NCBI RefSeq assembly: GCF_007860175.1
Contig: NZ_SJPX01000004.1
Span: 558,001-622,000, forward strand
From: Rubripirellula reticaptiva
GTDB lineage: Bacteria; Planctomycetota; Planctomycetia; Pirellulales; Pirellulaceae
Reading direction: 5' to 3'
DNA length: 64,000 bases
Shown: piece by piece, positions 47,901-52,501 of the stretch
Numbering within the stretch: the stretch's first letter is position 1
Layout of the letters: every line of letters begins with the position of its first letter
The notes under the pieces: model-generated
Told to the model about the DNA's origin: nothing
Seen by the model: only the letters and a program-made list of their open reading frames with translations
Databases searched by the model: none
Position numbers and translations under genes: made by a program

Positions 47901-48308
47901 GTGACACGTCCCGCCCAGGCCTTTGCCGACCATCGCGGCGCCAATGTGCATAACATTGGACAAACGCCCGCCTCCAAATCTGACGAACTGCCCTATGGAA
48001 AAATTCGCAACGGCGAGCTGCCGCCAATGATGTTTCAGATTCGGATGAACAACGGGCAAACGGTCAGTTTCGCCTACAGCGATGTTCGCGAAATTCGTAG
48101 CCGCGATGCGGGTTTCGTACAGATCGGTGTGTTCGCAATGAGCCGAGTCATGATCACCATCGAAGGCCGCAATCTCATAGAACTAACGAACTTGCTTGGC
48201 ATGGCTATGATTCGATGGATCTCGGAAGCCGATCCACGCGGTGAGGAACGCCCTGAAACGTCACCAGAGATCGACAGCATCAGCATCGAACCAATCGATG
48301 CGGGATGA
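47901..48308 (+). CDS. Small protein of unknown function after the relaxase
   Basis: 135 residues from GTG 47901, with GGAAGGA about ten bases upstream and two bases after the relaxase stop; a TTG at 47895 is also in frame. The middle (MFQIRMNNGQTVSFAYSDVR) and AGFVQIGVF ... VMITIEGRNLIELTNLL are beta-rich with a final helix. I do not recognise the family. The coupling to the relaxase gene suggests a role in plasmid transfer or its control. Confidence 0.75.
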   Translation: MTRPAQAFADHRGANVHNIGQTPASKSDELPYGKIRNGELPPMMFQIRMNNGQTVSFAYSDVREIRSRDAGFVQIGVFAMSRVMITIEGRNLIELTNLLGMAMIRWISEADPRGEERPETSPEIDSISIEPIDAG

Positions 48309-48454
48309 GTCAGCCCAAAATCCCAAATTTGGGATTTCTTCCAATCGGTAGAAAAGAAGCGTCTTCGGCGGGGCAATGGGAAACGAAGATTCGGGCCGGG
48401 TGCTTTGATGACGAGCCCAACTCTGAGCAAGAGCGTGAGTTCGCCGCGATGTGA
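48305..48454 (+). CDS. Possible 49-residue protein coupled to the upstream gene
   Basis: ATG 48305 overlaps the previous stop (ATGA). The frame encodes MSQPKIPNLGFLPIGRKEAS and continues as a plausible acidic sequence (QWETKIRAGCFDDEPNSEQE) to a TGA at 48452-48454. Composition looks like protein rather than chance, and the coupling is of the usual type. A perfect 20-bp palindrome lies within it (48318-48337). Too short to assign to a family. Confidence 0.45.
   Translation: MSQPKIPNLGFLPIGRKEASSAGQWETKIRAGCFDDEPNSEQEREFAAM
48318..48337. other. Perfect 20-bp palindrome AAATCCCAAATTTGGGATTT
   Basis: Both halves match exactly with no spacer. It lies between the convergent gene ends at 48308 and 48503 and within the possible 49-residue frame. 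No T-run follows on either strand. It could be a regulator-binding site or a weak bidirectional terminator. Confidence 0.5.
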
Positions 48455-48502
48455 CAGCTTCAAGGCATGCCACGCCAGCCCTCAGGCGGACTGGTGGCAA
48501 CT

Positions 48503-49282
48503 TCAAAAAAGGTCAAGCTGTGAGGCCGTATCATCGTGGTCACGACTCGTCGTGTCTCTGATAGTGAGCTCGCTCGCTGACGTTTGACGGATTGGGGCGT
48601 TGGCATTGGTCACCGCCGTCACATTAAACGGTGATCGCTCGACGGGCACGTCCGCAATGACGCCACCGGCCGGATTGAAGCCGATCTTGTAAACGCGGTG
48701 CACTTCAAGGGTGAGCGTGTTCTGATGCACGGCCCAGCCGTGTAGTCCGTTCAAGCCGAGGTTGATCGCCGTCATCATCACGGCACGGTGGTCGATATCT
48801 TGTCCGATCAATTCCCAGTGTGGTTGATGCTTGGCGACGGCCAATAGTTGCCGACCCGATCCGCAGGCAGGGTCGCAAACGGACTTGGGTTCATCGGTCC
48901 GCTCGGCCGGCACCGTCATCGACGCCATCAAATCACAAACACTGTCGGGTGTGAAAAACTGGCCGTTCTCGCCGTAGGTGATGGCACCTTGAAAGATATC
49001 GCCCAGCACATCGGCTTGGGTTTCTTCCATGGCGTTCACGAGCATCGCAAAGCCTTGGGCAAGCGTGTCGATGCCGCGTTTGCCTTTCGGGCCGTCGGTG
49101 TAACCCTGCTCGATGGTCGCATGATACTCGGCTTCCATCGTCTGGCCTGCCAAAGCACATTTGCTGACGGTTAAGAAGTCGGTAAAGACTCGACCTCTCG
49201 CGTGCCCGGTTTGCCGAGCGGTTTGAGCGAAGAGTTCGACGAGTGTTTTGCTCGCCGGTAACGTGAAGAATTCTTTTGCCAT
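48503..49282 (-). CDS. N6-adenine methylase-like protein without the NPPY motif
   Basis: 259 residues, ATG 49282. It has the methylase entry motif GQFFTP (107-112), SAM-binding motif I DPACGSG (137-143) and an acidic residue in GQDID (near 162). The catalytic NPP(Y/F) motif expected about 50-60 residues later is absent: the region reads GFNPAGGVIADVPVERSPF. So SAM binding is likely, but normal adenine methylation is doubtful. The C-terminus is DDTASQLDLF; QLDLF is the consensus sliding-clamp binding motif. The leader (49280-49344) carries a short peptide frame and a hairpin nearly identical to those before ArdC. Confidence 0.8.
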   Translation of the reverse strand: MAKEFFTLPASKTLVELFAQTARQTGHARGRVFTDFLTVSKCALAGQTMEAEYHATIEQGYTDGPKGKRGIDTLAQGFAMLVNAMEETQADVLGDIFQGAITYGENGQFFTPDSVCDLMASMTVPAERTDEPKSVCDPACGSGRQLLAVAKHQPHWELIGQDIDHRAVMMTAINLGLNGLHGWAVHQNTLTLEVHRVYKIGFNPAGGVIADVPVERSPFNVTAVTNANAPIRQTSASELTIRDTTSRDHDDTASQLDLF

Positions 49283-49344
49283 GCCGCCCTATGCTTTCGG
49301 GCGGGCGGTTCCTGTTGTTGGAGTCATCGGACTGCCCTTTCTCT
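49280..49344 (-). promoter_or_regulatory. Duplicated leader with hairpin over the methylase start
   Basis: 65 bp that match 50888-50952 with only three differences. On the transcribed strand, CCGCCC (two placements, plus-strand 49299-49304 or 49303-49308) can pair with GGGCGG (49284-49289), which covers the AGGG that would serve as ribosome-binding site for the gene at 49282. The 12-codon leader frame (49289-49327) runs through the 5' arm and stops in the loop/stem border, so its translation could open the hairpin. Confidence 0.7.
49289..49327 (-). CDS. 12-residue leader peptide MTPTTGTARPKA, copy 1
   Basis: Starts at ATG 49327 with AAAGGG seven bases upstream and ends at TAG 49289, six bases before the methylase start and in the same frame. 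The same peptide is encoded at 50897-50935. The two DNA copies differ at two codons, both synonymous (ACA/ACC for Thr, GCA/GCG for Ala), which points to selection on the peptide. Function by translational coupling or ribosome stalling is inference. Confidence 0.6.
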   Translation of the reverse strand: MTPTTGTARPKA

Positions 49345-49399
49345 AACTGGTTTCGGTTTGGTGGAGGATGCCGGCCACATGTCGGCACCCTCGATCGTC

Positions 49400-49678
49400 T
49401 TATTCGTTCTCGGACGTTGTCGTTTGACCTGATGCGTCAATCGCCTTCAACTCGGCGATGCGGTCGGTGACTTTGCCGACCAAGTGCCCAAGTTTCAGAT
49501 TGTCGATCGCACTGAAGGATGTCGTTTCCTTCCACTGCCCGTCGGCGGTCTTGTAACTGCGGCTGTAGCTGACGGTGTATCGATCGGGTTTTCCATCCGT
49601 CCCCGGATTTCTCCAGATCGTTCCCTTCAGTCCTCCGAAGCGTTCGGTGAAAGCTGGTTTGTTGGTTTCTTGTGTCAT
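49400..49678 (-). CDS. Small plasmid protein, same family as 10439-10705
   Basis: 92 residues from ATG 49678, preceded by AAGGAAAA. An upstream extension of the frame to 49852 is not needed. The core is LKGTIWRNPGTDGKPDRYTV, then SYKTADGQWKETTSFSAIDN and a helix (LVGKVTDRIAEL). The pattern matches the 88-residue protein at 10439. Not a known enzyme; probably a compact beta-sheet domain. It sits between the methylase-like gene and ardC, all on the same strand. Confidence 0.75.
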   Translation of the reverse strand: MTQETNKPAFTERFGGLKGTIWRNPGTDGKPDRYTVSYSRSYKTADGQWKETTSFSAIDNLKLGHLVGKVTDRIAELKAIDASGQTTTSENE

Positions 49679-49879
49679 GGCGTTTTTTCCTTTCGTTTTG
49701 GTTGACCATGGTCCGCGTGCAAGCCGCGGTCGGGGTTCTGTCTGCAAGGGGTGTTGGTGCGGCACGCAGCGAAGCGAGTACACGGCCCCTTGCTGAGAGA
49801 ATATCGATCGTGGCAGCGTGTCCTGGTTTGTCATCCGAAGCCGAAAGGCCAAACGTGATGTCAGGTTCGTCCCACATAC

Positions 49880-50890
49880 CTAGAACAGATCCAATTGGAT
49901 TGAAGCAGGATCGGCTGGTTTGTTGACGAACTGTTCCAGGTCGTCGATACGCTGTTGCGACGATGCGATTTTCTGTGTCGGCGTGGCTACGGTTTCAAAC
50001 GTGGTTCCCAGAACCAGATCGGCGGCTTTTTGCGCGGATGCGGCTGCACTGACCACCAATCGTTTATCGCCGCGAAGGACATTGATCCAGCTTTGCAGAT
50101 AGGACGCAGACTGCTCGATCGTCGGCGGACTGATCCCGGCCGATGCACTCAAGAATGCGGCCCCCATCTCGGCCACAAGTTCTTCTTTCGAATAGTCGTT
50201 ACTGCCGAAAGGTGCCAGCTTCGTATCAAGCCCTCGATCCAGCCGCTTCGAATGTCCAGTGGAGTGTGTGATCTCGTGGAACAAAGTCGAATAGTAACTC
50301 TCAGGATTTTCAAAACGCCCCTGCTCAGGCATGTGAATGGTGTCCGTCGAGGGTCGATAGAACGCCCGCCCTCCTCCGTCATGTTCAATCGTCGGTTTGC
50401 TGGCGTATCCGTCGACGATCCGCTCCGCAGCTGTGATCCGCTCAAAGGGGCTGGCATCAGAGGGCAGTTTCGGAACATCCGGTGACGCGATGCCTTCGAT
50501 CTGATCGAGGTTGAATGCGGTGTAGTGCTTCAGCATCGGGATTTCGACATCCAGTCCGATTTCGCGGTCTTTGGTTACATACATCTTCCAGAACGTCACC
50601 AGTGATCCCTTCTCGCCTTTGCGAACTTGACCGCCGGCAGCGGCTGCCTGCTTGAAGGTCAGCCAGAAGTCGGATGAATAGCCGCGTTCCCAGCTGGTCA
50701 GGCCGAGCAGAAAGACGTTGATGCCGCGATAGCGTCTACCGCTGTCGAGATTCTTCGGCCATCCGTCGCCGGTTCCGCGCTGGATTGGATTTCGCCATGG
50801 TGCGGTGCCTTGTTCGAGATGTCCGATGATCTTGTCGGTTACCTCTTGATAGATGTCGCGTTTTGCTTTGCGTTTGGTTTGTTGTGTCAT
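49880..50890 (-). CDS. ardC: ArdC-type antirestriction metalloprotease
   Basis: 336 residues, ATG 50890. The N-terminal 105 residues have the ArdC single-strand-DNA binding pattern (YQEVTDKIIGHLEQGTAPW, LLGLTSWERGY). The C-terminal zincin has HEITHSTGH (205-213: His205, Glu206, His209) and a later acidic helix (KEELVAEMGAAFL, 235-247) giving the third ligand. ArdC coats incoming single-stranded plasmid DNA and protects it from host restriction during transfer. The protein ends DPASIQLDLF, a clamp-binding-like tail shared with the methylase at 48503. Its leader, 50888-50952, is the second copy of the hairpin and peptide element. Confidence 0.9.
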   Translation of the reverse strand: MTQQTKRKAKRDIYQEVTDKIIGHLEQGTAPWRNPIQRGTGDGWPKNLDSGRRYRGINVFLLGLTSWERGYSSDFWLTFKQAAAAGGQVRKGEKGSLVTFWKMYVTKDREIGLDVEIPMLKHYTAFNLDQIEGIASPDVPKLPSDASPFERITAAERIVDGYASKPTIEHDGGGRAFYRPSTDTIHMPEQGRFENPESYYSTLFHEITHSTGHSKRLDRGLDTKLAPFGSNDYSKEELVAEMGAAFLSASAGISPPTIEQSASYLQSWINVLRGDKRLVVSAAASAQKAADLVLGTTFETVATPTQKIASSQQRIDDLEQFVNKPADPASIQLDLF

Positions 50891-50952
50891 GCCGCCCTAC
50901 GCTTTCGGGCGGGCGGTTCCTGTGGTTGGAGTCATTGGACTGCCCTTTCTCT
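50888..50952 (-). promoter_or_regulatory. Duplicated leader with hairpin over the ardC start
   Basis: Second copy of the 65-bp element at 49280-49344. The GGGCGG arm again overlaps the AGGG ribosome-binding site of the gene, and the arm and loop sequence are kept except for one base in the loop. The similarity ends abruptly at both sides: after 50952 the sequences diverge, and the coding regions downstream differ apart from the start codon. Confidence 0.7.
50897..50935 (-). CDS. 12-residue leader peptide MTPTTGTARPKA, copy 2
   Basis: ATG 50935 to TAG 50897, six bases before the ardC start and in frame with it. Identical in peptide to the copy at 49289. The upstream AAAGGG is kept, at the same distance from the ATG. 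Confidence 0.6.
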   Translation of the reverse strand: MTPTTGTARPKA

Positions 50953-51013
50953 TCTTTGGTTTTCGGAACAATGCGTATGTGGCACGCATTGGCTGGTCAC
51001 GTCAATCATTTCT

Positions 51014-51217
51014 TTATCCATCCGACTCGTCGGCCAGATGATGAATGAGTTGATAGTCGGTTTCTCGCTCAAACGCACTGACGAAGTCGAAGCCGTTCTC
51101 TTTGGCGATGGCTTCCAGTGCCCATTGCATTGTCGGATGTTCGTAGAGACGGTTTGTCATTACAGCGACACCTTCGGCGTACCAGTTGTTGTTTTCAAAT
51201 TGAATGACGATTGTCAT
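51014..51217 (-). CDS. Small plasmid protein of unknown function
   Basis: 67 residues, ATG 51217 with AGGAAA upstream. A three-codon frame (ATGAAAACATGA) overlaps the start. Begins MTIVIQFENNNWYAEGVAVM and ends acidic (HHLADESDG). It looks like a compact alpha/beta domain. No family is recognised. It sits between ardC and the next gene on the same strand and is probably co-transcribed. Confidence 0.7.
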   Translation of the reverse strand: MTIVIQFENNNWYAEGVAVMTNRLYEHPTMQWALEAIAKENGFDFVSAFERETDYQLIHHLADESDG

Positions 51218-51277
51218 GTTTTCATTTCCTATTTGTTAAGTTTGATCGGGGCGTGATTGCCCCGATCGTGTGTCGGT

Positions 51278-51718
51278 TTAGTGTTCGCTCGGCAGATACA
51301 ACGTCCAATGCTCGCCGTCGAAAGCGGCCCAGATATCAATCTGTTGGAGCGGGAAGTCGGTGTATTCGATCTCTTGGACGATGAATGGTTCATCGGGACT
51401 GTCTGCCTTGGCAAAAAGCTGAGCGGTGGTCCCTTCCCCGAGTTTGAGCGTCCAGAAGTGCATTTGACTGATGCGTGGATCATCGGCCGCAGCTTTGTTG
51501 AATGGTTCGCTACCGATCCAGGATGCGATCGCATCGATGAGCCAGTACGCCTGCCCTCGTTCGGCAACATGCTCGACTCCAGGTGTGTAGATGACTTGTC
51601 GATTCAGCCCGTGTCGTGTGCGTTCTAGATCGCCGGTGAAGTGTCGGAGTTCTTGCTCCGTGAGCGGTCCCTCCTCTTTTGGCTTTCCTGTCACATGGAT
51701 GATTTCAATGTCTGGCAT
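51278..51718 (-). CDS. DUF6876-like protein
   Basis: 146 residues from ATG 51718, preceded by AAAGGAGAAA; the longer open frame to 51892 is unlikely to be used. The sequence LTEQELRHFTGDLERTRHGL, then YTPGVEHVAERGQAYWLIDA, then FWTLKLGEGTTAQLF matches what I remember of DUF6876 proteins, common on plasmids and in cyanobacteria. The function is not known. It is the first gene of the minus-strand group that contains ardC and the methylase. Confidence 0.7.
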   Translation of the reverse strand: MPDIEIIHVTGKPKEEGPLTEQELRHFTGDLERTRHGLNRQVIYTPGVEHVAERGQAYWLIDAIASWIGSEPFNKAAADDPRISQMHFWTLKLGEGTTAQLFAKADSPDEPFIVQEIEYTDFPLQQIDIWAAFDGEHWTLYLPSEH

Positions 51719-51759
51719 GGTTTGTTTCTCCTTTTGTTGATTGACCATGCTGCGATTAC

Positions 51760-51868
51760 CCCGCCTGGTTCGCCGGCATCGTGACAAGGGTTTTCGCGTA
51801 GCGATTTTCCGAAGCGGCCGAAGGTGTAGCTGGCAGGAAAACCCTTGCCGCGAGGTTGGCAAGGCGGG
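51760..51868. other. Long imperfect inverted repeat between divergent gene groups
   Basis: The outer arms CCCGCCT (51760-51766) and AGGCGGG (51862-51868), and the inner arms CAAGGGTTTTC (51785-51795) and GAAAACCCTTG (51837-51847), are exact inverted matches about 20 bases apart on each side. The centre of 41 bases is unpaired. It sits between the minus-strand group ending at 51718 and the plus-strand genes from 51967, the sort of place for an origin of transfer, a partition site or a two-way control region. Confidence 0.5.
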
Positions 51869-51966
51869 ACGCTGCATGAAAAAGTCAGTCAACCGAAAGG
51901 AGAGGCGGTCACGCGAGATTCAAAAACCTGTTGACCGGCAACGCCAAGGGTGGCACTGTCCGCGCC

Positions 51967-52230
51967 ATGGACCCAGAAGAAACCCTTTCAGCGATGTTTG
52001 ACGCTTTGGCAAGCGGCGATCGGGATCAAGCCCTCGAGCACGCCCAGGATCTGAAGGATTGGCTGCGTCGGGGAGGCTTTGTGCCTTCGATTGAACTGAA
52101 GATTGGAACGCGGCGCCCCCAGATCTTGCCAGCTGCCTTGAGCCGCGCCTTCGTTGAAACAGCACTACGCTTGCCCGAACAAAGACCAGTCCATCAGCCC
52201 AATCCAGGACGAGATCCGCAACATGGATGA
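51967..52230 (+). CDS. Small plasmid protein of unknown function
   Basis: 87 residues from ATG 51967. It starts MDPEETLSAMFDALASGDRD and continues HAQDLKDWLRRGGFVPSI; the pattern HAxxLxxWLxRGGFxP recurs in small plasmid proteins I have seen but cannot name. The end overlaps the start of the next gene by eight bases. The C-terminal third is Pro/Arg-rich and may be disordered. Confidence 0.65.
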   Translation: MDPEETLSAMFDALASGDRDQALEHAQDLKDWLRRGGFVPSIELKIGTRRPQILPAALSRAFVETALRLPEQRPVHQPNPGRDPQHG

Positions 52231-52492
52231 GGCGATCGAACGACTGACCAATGAAGTTCAAGTCCTTCGGGAAAGCGTTGACCAACTAAAGACCGCACTG
52301 GAGCACGCCATTCGAAACGGGCGGATCGTGGTTGAGTTCGCGGAAGCATCAGCGAATGATCGACAACGACCATCAACGCTGCTCGATGCCAAGGATATTG
52401 ATGACGATTGCCCAATCGCGTTGAATGCTGAAGAGTTAGACGATGATGTAAGTCCCAGACCCCCTCCTCCGCTTCCAGGCGATTTGTTTTAG
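52223..52492 (+). CDS. Small coiled-coil protein
   Basis: 89 residues from ATG 52223; the open frame goes back to 52154, but the coiled coil (MDEAIERLTNEVQVLRESVD) starts here. The C-terminus is acidic and Pro-rich (SPRPPPPLPGDLF). Overlap with the preceding gene suggests coupling. No family is recognised. Confidence 0.55.
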   Translation: MDEAIERLTNEVQVLRESVDQLKTALEHAIRNGRIVVEFAEASANDRQRPSTLLDAKDIDDDCPIALNAEELDDDVSPRPPPPLPGDLF

Positions 52493-52501
52493 GCGATGCC
52501 A

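Follow-up and report, generated by a model that had tools for sequence, protein, structure and literature searches.

We analysed a stretch of 64,000 nucleotides from Rubripirellula reticaptiva (contig NZ_SJPX01000004.1, positions 558,001 to 622,000; hereafter the window), in which ardC and a methylase-like gene, both on the minus strand, are each preceded by nearly the same leader cassette. The cassette consists of a tiny reading frame with a Shine-Dalgarno (SD)-like site of its own and of a predicted hairpin over the start of the gene (Table 1). The contig measures 1.12 Mb in a genome of 7.85 Mb. Given that the neighbourhood encodes a TrwC relaxase and a Toprim/DUF3991 protein, the locus is likely part of a conjugative or mobile element of this planctomycete.

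The two leader cassettes of the window

The repeat copies (49271-49344 and 50879-50952) are 92% identical over 74 nt. Within them, the 65-bp segments directly upstream of the methylase-like gene (49280-49344) and of ardC (50888-50952) differ at three bases: G or A just 5' of the leader ATG, ACA or ACC at codon 4, and GCA or GCG at codon 12, the two in-frame differences being synonymous. Both copies have the minus-strand layout AAAGGG-CAGTCC(G/A)-ATG...TAG-GGCGGC-ATG and the leader MTPTTGTARPKA; AAAGGG lies seven bases 5' of the leader ATG, and the six bases GGCGGC separate the TAG from the ATG of the gene (49282 and 50890, respectively). The last leader codons make up the 5' arm of the hairpin, while the 3' arm holds the gene's SD, which the TAG overlaps, and adjoins the start codon. 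The original prediction, made on this DNA before any search, is thus confirmed in its two near-identical segments and, on both copies, in the shared 12-residue frame, the AAAGGG ahead of it, the synonymous differences and the stop six bases before the gene. Its hairpin over the gene's AGGG holds in part: the GGG is paired, but the A sits in the stop codon and is unpaired, and the stem (GCC(C)GCCC/GGGCGGC or CCGCCC/GGGCGG) is weaker than drawn. The window copies fold about one standard deviation better than shuffles (z -1.15 and -1.08).

A degenerate pattern of the peptide, allowing up to three mismatches, matches the window at these two sites only and at none in 100 shuffles. The 80-nt element has exactly two matches in the genome, both in the window; in the plasmid records, where it had been suggested that further copies be sought, it has none. 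An Rfam scan of 48000-52500 returned one match (E 3.2), away from the element and judged to be chance.

With such a layout, a ribosome most likely has to translate the tiny frame before it can start on the gene. We picture the following steps: (I) on the naked mRNA the gene start would be partly closed; (II) a ribosome would enter at the leader's SD, translate 11-16 codons and unfold the hairpin; (III) it would terminate on the TAG six or seven bases upstream, and the same or the next ribosome would initiate at the gene. Expression of ardC and of the methylase-like gene would then depend alike on leader translation, with or without a promoter of their own, and the leader peptide itself would be a by-product. 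We consider translational coupling of this kind, with or without strong gating, to be the probable function of the cassette; it overlaps with the "antenna" alternative discussed below. It is the relatives that lend support to frame and stem, rather than the window folds by themselves.

Table 1. Features of the locus, in window coordinates
Feature	Position	Strand	Remarks
Leader cassette of methylase-like gene	49283..49340	-	SD, leader frame, spacer
SD-like site of that leader frame	49335..49340	-	AAAGGG; similar in relatives
Leader frame, methylase-like gene	49289..49327	-	MTPTTGTARPKA and stop; TAG overlaps gene's SD
Hairpin, methylase-like gene	49283..49308	-	5' arm leader codons 7-10; 3' arm GGGCGGC adjoining gene ATG
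Methylase-like gene	48503..49282	-	N6_Mtase match at residues 90-213; no NPPY-type motif; C-terminus QLDLF
Codons for QLDLF, methylase-like protein	48506..48520	-	C-terminal
Leader cassette of ardC	50891..50948	-	
SD-like site of ardC leader frame	50943..50948	-	AAAGGG
Leader frame, ardC	50897..50935	-	MTPTTGTARPKA and stop
Hairpin over ardC start region	50891..50916	-	
ardC	49880..50890	-	ArdcN and MPTase-PolyVal; C-terminus QLDLF
Codons for QLDLF, ArdC	49883..49897	-	C-terminal
Promoter-like block before ardC leader	50980..51005	-	TTGAC-N16-TGCCA, read as -35 and extended -10
80-aa gene between ardC and methylase-like gene	49437..49679	-	Ordinary ribosome-binding site, no leader seen; presumed operon member

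Leader frame and stem among relatives

At the DNA level, 14 of 241 genomes in the source family gave a match, and 14 elements in 8 genomes, our own included, were accepted; six short BLAST matches (L010-L015) were judged on reading to be chance and were dropped before counting. A covariance model (CM) built from 15 copies gave 20 matches in 13 of the family genomes, 19 of which precede ardC or the methylase-like gene, one of these being a decayed ardC (L109). The CM match L112 (E 0.008) was judged to be chance, as were, on reading, L121-L127, which were dropped before counting. Among 392 phylum-wide genomes the model matched 9, with copies accepted only in our own genome and in G544. Pattern searches of viral contigs gave 11 and 22 matches, none with a leader plus a gene start, and all were judged to be chance.

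The family yielded 54 ArdC matches, of which 30 became loci and were read, together with G206:342170, seen via L018. At 60% identity or more there are 13: the leader is present in 11, G111 is a stemless variant and G137 has none; the other 18 fetched family loci, including L156 with hardly any upstream sequence, show no frame of the kind tested. Of the 16 methylase-like matches, the leader is present in 7, and both frame and stem are missing in another 7; G210 keeps the stem but not the frame, and L169, a fragment, was not judged. As for the 79 named ArdC loci, the upstream sequence was read for 39 (L021-L059) and the frame caller described below was run on all; the frame is intact in L022, L025, L026, L032, L035, L036, L038 and L040, and its TAG is out of frame in L030 and L034. 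An ArdC search of the phylum (40 matches, 28 new loci read) recovered the leader in G544 again and in G335. The leader is thus seen in the source family and in named Lacipirellulaceae and Phycisphaerae, and the identical peptide MTPTTGTARPKA occurs only in the two window copies and in two of one sister genome (G151).

In a tree of 49 ArdC rows of our own choosing, all leaders fall within one 34-row branch (support 96/90), which comprises these same three groups and holds 21 rows with the leader (two of them off-frame), 2 variants and 11 without; outside the branch the leader is found in 0 of 15 rows. The tree requires at least nine leader changes, which we read as one old gain followed by repeated losses. 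Relatives of the 80-aa gene start GAAAGGACAAAGCC-ATGACACAGACACA, close to the leader start GAAAGGGCAGTCC-ATGACAC (L161:1100-1174, L136:177-251, L166:1158-1231), and the leader may be derived from a gene start like that of the 80-aa gene.

Frame conservation was assessed in 32 stem-type elements, picked by hand from the reads and partly by similarity to a frame-bearing copy; the less biased count is that of the blind caller. In 28 of the 32 an ATG frame ends on TAG before the gene, at a distance of six bases (24) or seven (4). The intact leaders have 11, 12, 13, 15 or 16 codons, i.e. indels come in threes, and the stop is TAG in all 28. AAAGGG or a similar SD-like site precedes the leader in most rows, more weakly in G027 and G028. 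Hence, as coupling from an upstream open reading frame demands, the frame has an SD-like site of its own and ends near the downstream start. L109, next to the decayed ardC, has lost the TAG, which we count as support. Two stemless variants have a 13-codon frame that ends at the gene start, with no GGGCGG stem: L138 (MHIRPIRTARRNA, stop TAATG) and L176 (MHKRKVTNRLKFG, TGATCATG). The spacing also bears on whether suppression of the TAG could give an N-terminally extended protein, since a six-base spacing, found in 24 of the 28 intact leaders, keeps the leader in phase with the gene. With the seven-base spacing of L032, L036, G335 and G027 the two are out of frame, as they are in both stemless variants, and such readthrough is very improbable indeed.

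The caller is blind to sequence and stem and accepts frames of 10-17 codons that end between -12 and +2. As a background, it was applied to 267 frames of at least 200 aa in 464 kb of the contig (the window and a further 400 kb), where it found any short frame before 19 of the 267 and a TAG at -6/-7 before 3; without the two window genes these counts become 17/265 and 1/265. By comparison, a TAG at -6/-7 is found in 8 of the 79 named ArdC loci, in 10/30 and 2/28 further ArdC loci, and in 7 of the 16 methylase-like loci, and all of these positives are elements already listed. Beyond these, just five frames were called, and they end on other stops (L063, L138, L165, L176 and L193), the two variants among them. 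Over the N-terminal leader codons, the nonsynonymous/synonymous ratio is 0.47, versus 1.14 and 0.66 in the shifted frames (48 pairs that are not independent).

Upstream of the leader, a block TTGAC-N15/16-TG(G/C)CA occurs in 20 of 34 elements, as against 5 in 800,000 background bases; going by the promoter consensus, we take this block to be a -35 plus an extended -10. Its other window matches (51931 and 54535) were judged to be chance, 3 being found and 0.65 expected. In L166 and L177, which lack the leader, the block sits 15 bases away from the gene, counted from TG to ATG, and their mRNA would hence be about leaderless. The leader is present and the block absent in three methylase-like copies downstream of ardC (G000, G151 and G206), which indicates a translational role; by a loose scan, four ardC-type rows lack the block as well. 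The block upstream, and the conservation of GAAAGGGCAGTCC beyond the apparent need of an SD, would suit a DNA or RNA element (an operator, a single-strand promoter hairpin, or a site for a small RNA or protein) within which the frame is accidental. We give this little credence, as the frame is kept with threefold indels and TAG, is refound by the blind caller, has the lowest nonsynonymous ratio of the three frames, and is retained by the stemless variants.

The leader residues themselves vary across the 28 leaders: outside the stem codons only the start is kept, and the leaders of L025, L032, L036 and L040 (Phycisphaerae) have little in common with that of the window. What selection seems to preserve is thus that the leader is translated, not which peptide it encodes. 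According to the original prediction, an alignment of further copies would lend support if it showed peptide conservation with synonymous drift and compensatory changes in the stem; the stem is indeed kept with co-varying changes, but the peptide is not conserved outside the stem codons.

In the attenuators of erm and cat genes, a leader peptide is combined with a hairpin that masks the gene's SD, and regulation depends on stalling at conserved codons. The original prediction had proposed a ribosome-opened hairpin common to the methylase-like gene and ardC and had likened it to these attenuators. The co-varying stem speaks for the common hairpin, and leader peptide and masked SD are indeed shared features; the likeness itself is not supported, since the peptide here is not conserved, the TAG overlaps the gene's SD, and the frame traverses the stem. 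If a drug, a shortage of amino acids or another stress were to stall the ribosome at particular leader codons and so free the SD, just such a frame before a partly masked SD would be required, and several leaders of the source family are rich in Thr codons. However, no residue besides the start is kept outside the stem codons, and a frame that passes through the stem needs no stall to open the hairpin. Attenuation by Thr was discarded, as the leaders of Phycisphaerae do not share this richness. In the alternative structure the leader SD would pair with the 5' arm; own combinations do so no better than swapped ones (P 0.60 for 32 elements and 0.74 for 23), and a double lock of leader SD and 5' arm, a candidate by eye in L017, L111 and L120, was rejected by the same test. 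A stalling attenuator therefore fits poorly and is improbable.

As for the stem, across elements the 5' arm forms better pairs with the gene-SD arm of the same element than with swapped arms (P 0.002 and 0.003 in two runs with 32 elements; P 0.016 with 23 non-redundant elements). In 26 of 28 cases, opening the gene start is more costly than it is in synonymous recodings (mean z 1.36; 9 of 28 at ≤0.05 singly). Altered arms still pair in L017 (GCGACU/GGUCGC), L038 (CCGUCCC/GGGACGG) and L025 (GGCCC/GGGCC), and L020, L035 and L038, out of 16 single folds, are more than two standard deviations more stable than shuffles. As expected under coupling, the structure that closes the downstream start overlaps the upstream frame, although it is weak in L007 and L111 and absent in L138 and L176. 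These two variants, which keep the frame without the stem, suit a weaker form of coupling in which the leader ribosome acts as an "antenna" that feeds reinitiation, the hairpin arising from GC-rich codons and gating nothing. Feeding of this kind was proposed by Korolev (2016) for leader genes near starts in many phyla, including Planctomycetes (PMC4833913). Against this, both the swap and the synonymous tests point to a stem under selection, as do the changed arms that still pair, and we regard an antenna free of gating as possible but doubtful.

Several observations weigh against coupling through frame and stem. Four of the 32 elements (L030, L034, L109 and L160) have no in-frame TAG before the gene; in L030 and L034 the frame runs across the gene start and stops 17 nt into the gene, and L160 retains the stem with no frame. 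The original prediction had named broken frames or lost stems in further copies as evidence against it, and these four fall partly under that description. Thirteen of the 16 single folds lie within two standard deviations of shuffles; synonymous versions of L007 and L111 have stronger stems than the actual ones; and the sequence pairs are related, hence the P values are optimistic. RNAalifold, given 15 aligned copies, returned 5 pairs only, one with a two-sided change; in our opinion this is because MAFFT cannot align bulged with unbulged 5' arms, and the swap and recoding tests were then used. Finally, the 11 branch rows without a leader, and the 7 methylase-like loci with neither frame nor stem, imply that the cassette is dispensable.

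It should also be noted that the shifted leaders of L030 and L034 (Botrimarina hoheduenensis and Adhaeretor mobilis), which overlap the ardC GTG start, share the C-terminus LRVGRxGxGR.

Comparison with known systems

Models of coupling by unfolding and by reinitiation have been reviewed (PMC12548453), and leader coupling has been tested experimentally for S004-repA of SGI1, where a short upstream frame is needed in cis, an inverted repeat hides the downstream start, and reinitiation follows (PMC7826253); the same elements are predicted here. The gene controlled in SGI1 is a replication gene, whereas here ardC and a methylase-like gene, two unrelated genes, are preceded by a leader of 11-16 codons with a TAG overlapping the SD. 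Coupling by unfolding and reinitiation, as in S004-repA, fits our cassette well. The replication gene of R1 is reportedly under a comparable leader coupling, tap-repA.

Leader genes near starts were surveyed statistically by Korolev (2016), with a peak most pronounced for UAG and with Planctomycetes among the phyla (PMC4833913). Our leaders resemble those in being short, close to the gene and ended by UAG in a planctomycete; the peak of the survey lies at 10-11 in its own counting, whereas six or seven bases intervene here, and its main text has no mention of "ardC" or "methyl". Overlap of a stop codon with an SD at a spacing of 5-8 bp has been described as well (PMC2784483). In Bacillus plasmids of the pLS20 family, the repeats EGeRS1 and EGeRS2 recur upstream of ardC and other establishment genes (PMC8708921). 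As in our case, one conserved sequence is reused before ardC and another gene; unlike the leader cassette, EGeRS1 spans 420-750 bp and EGeRS2 is a promoter with Reg operators, and the term "leader peptide" is absent from the main text of that paper. In the open-access literature we found no paper that joins ardC with a leader peptide, or planctomycete with conjugative and ardC; ardC is likewise absent from the 20 titles listed out of 53 papers matched more loosely. Within that literature, the class of mechanism is known, and what is new is the conserved cassette on ardC and the methylase-like gene.

The two proteins and their common tail

ArdC matches the ArdcN and MPTase-PolyVal domains (E 2.9e-36 and 3.1e-40, respectively). 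The methylase-like protein contains DPACGSG, matches positions 3-134 of the 311 of N6_Mtase, and matches EcoR124II M over about 100 residues (E 3.2e-5). An N6-adenine DNA methyltransferase of the HsdM type is marked by the SAM motif plus a catalytic (N/D/S)PP(Y/F/W); this second, NPPY-type motif is absent from the methylase-like protein and from all 20 rows compared. The protein is possibly an inactive mimic of an M subunit, which we offer as a guess.

Both proteins end in QLDLF. Among 247 window frames (at least 80 aa, six frames) only these two have a QxxLF or QxxMF end, and none does among 1998 frames in 400 kb of the same contig. QL(S/D)LF is a published consensus for binding to the sliding clamp (PMC11139829), which both tails match, so that binding itself is predicted for the two proteins. 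Among 17 distinct methylase-like loci, 14 end in QLxLF; the exceptions are L164 and L170, which match the first part only, and the distant L096. QLDLF is also the end of 8 among the 13 close ArdCs (that of G028 on the piece after a stop), the rest ending in QLGLF (G215), QLKLFQ (G111), QPxLF (G209 and the second G206 copy) and QQNLFE (G137). The leader-bearing ArdCs of Phycisphaerae and Lacipirellulaceae have no QLDLF-type tail, and thus leader and tail are not strictly linked. No open-access paper was found that joins a clamp-binding motif with antirestriction.

ArdC of plasmid R388 is required in the recipient cell (PMC7213743); hence the timing and dose of ArdC synthesis after entry would matter. 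The leader is a conserved candidate for control of ArdC at the level of translation, reused on a second, unrelated gene, and the common clamp-type tail provides a concrete hypothesis on the site of action of both proteins. Tentatively, planctomycete conjugative elements might carry a two-protein establishment module with the same coupling leader in front and the same sliding-clamp tail behind; ArdC and a methylase-like protein that lacks a recognisable catalytic motif would be made together soon after entry and dock on the clamp that copies the incoming strand, shielding the new duplex from restriction at the fork. If so, the leader would be a portable translation-level cassette that ties unrelated genes together.

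Finally, two leader-bearing ardC genes, L134 (G028) and G206:C1:342170-343075, have one in-frame TAA inside the match.

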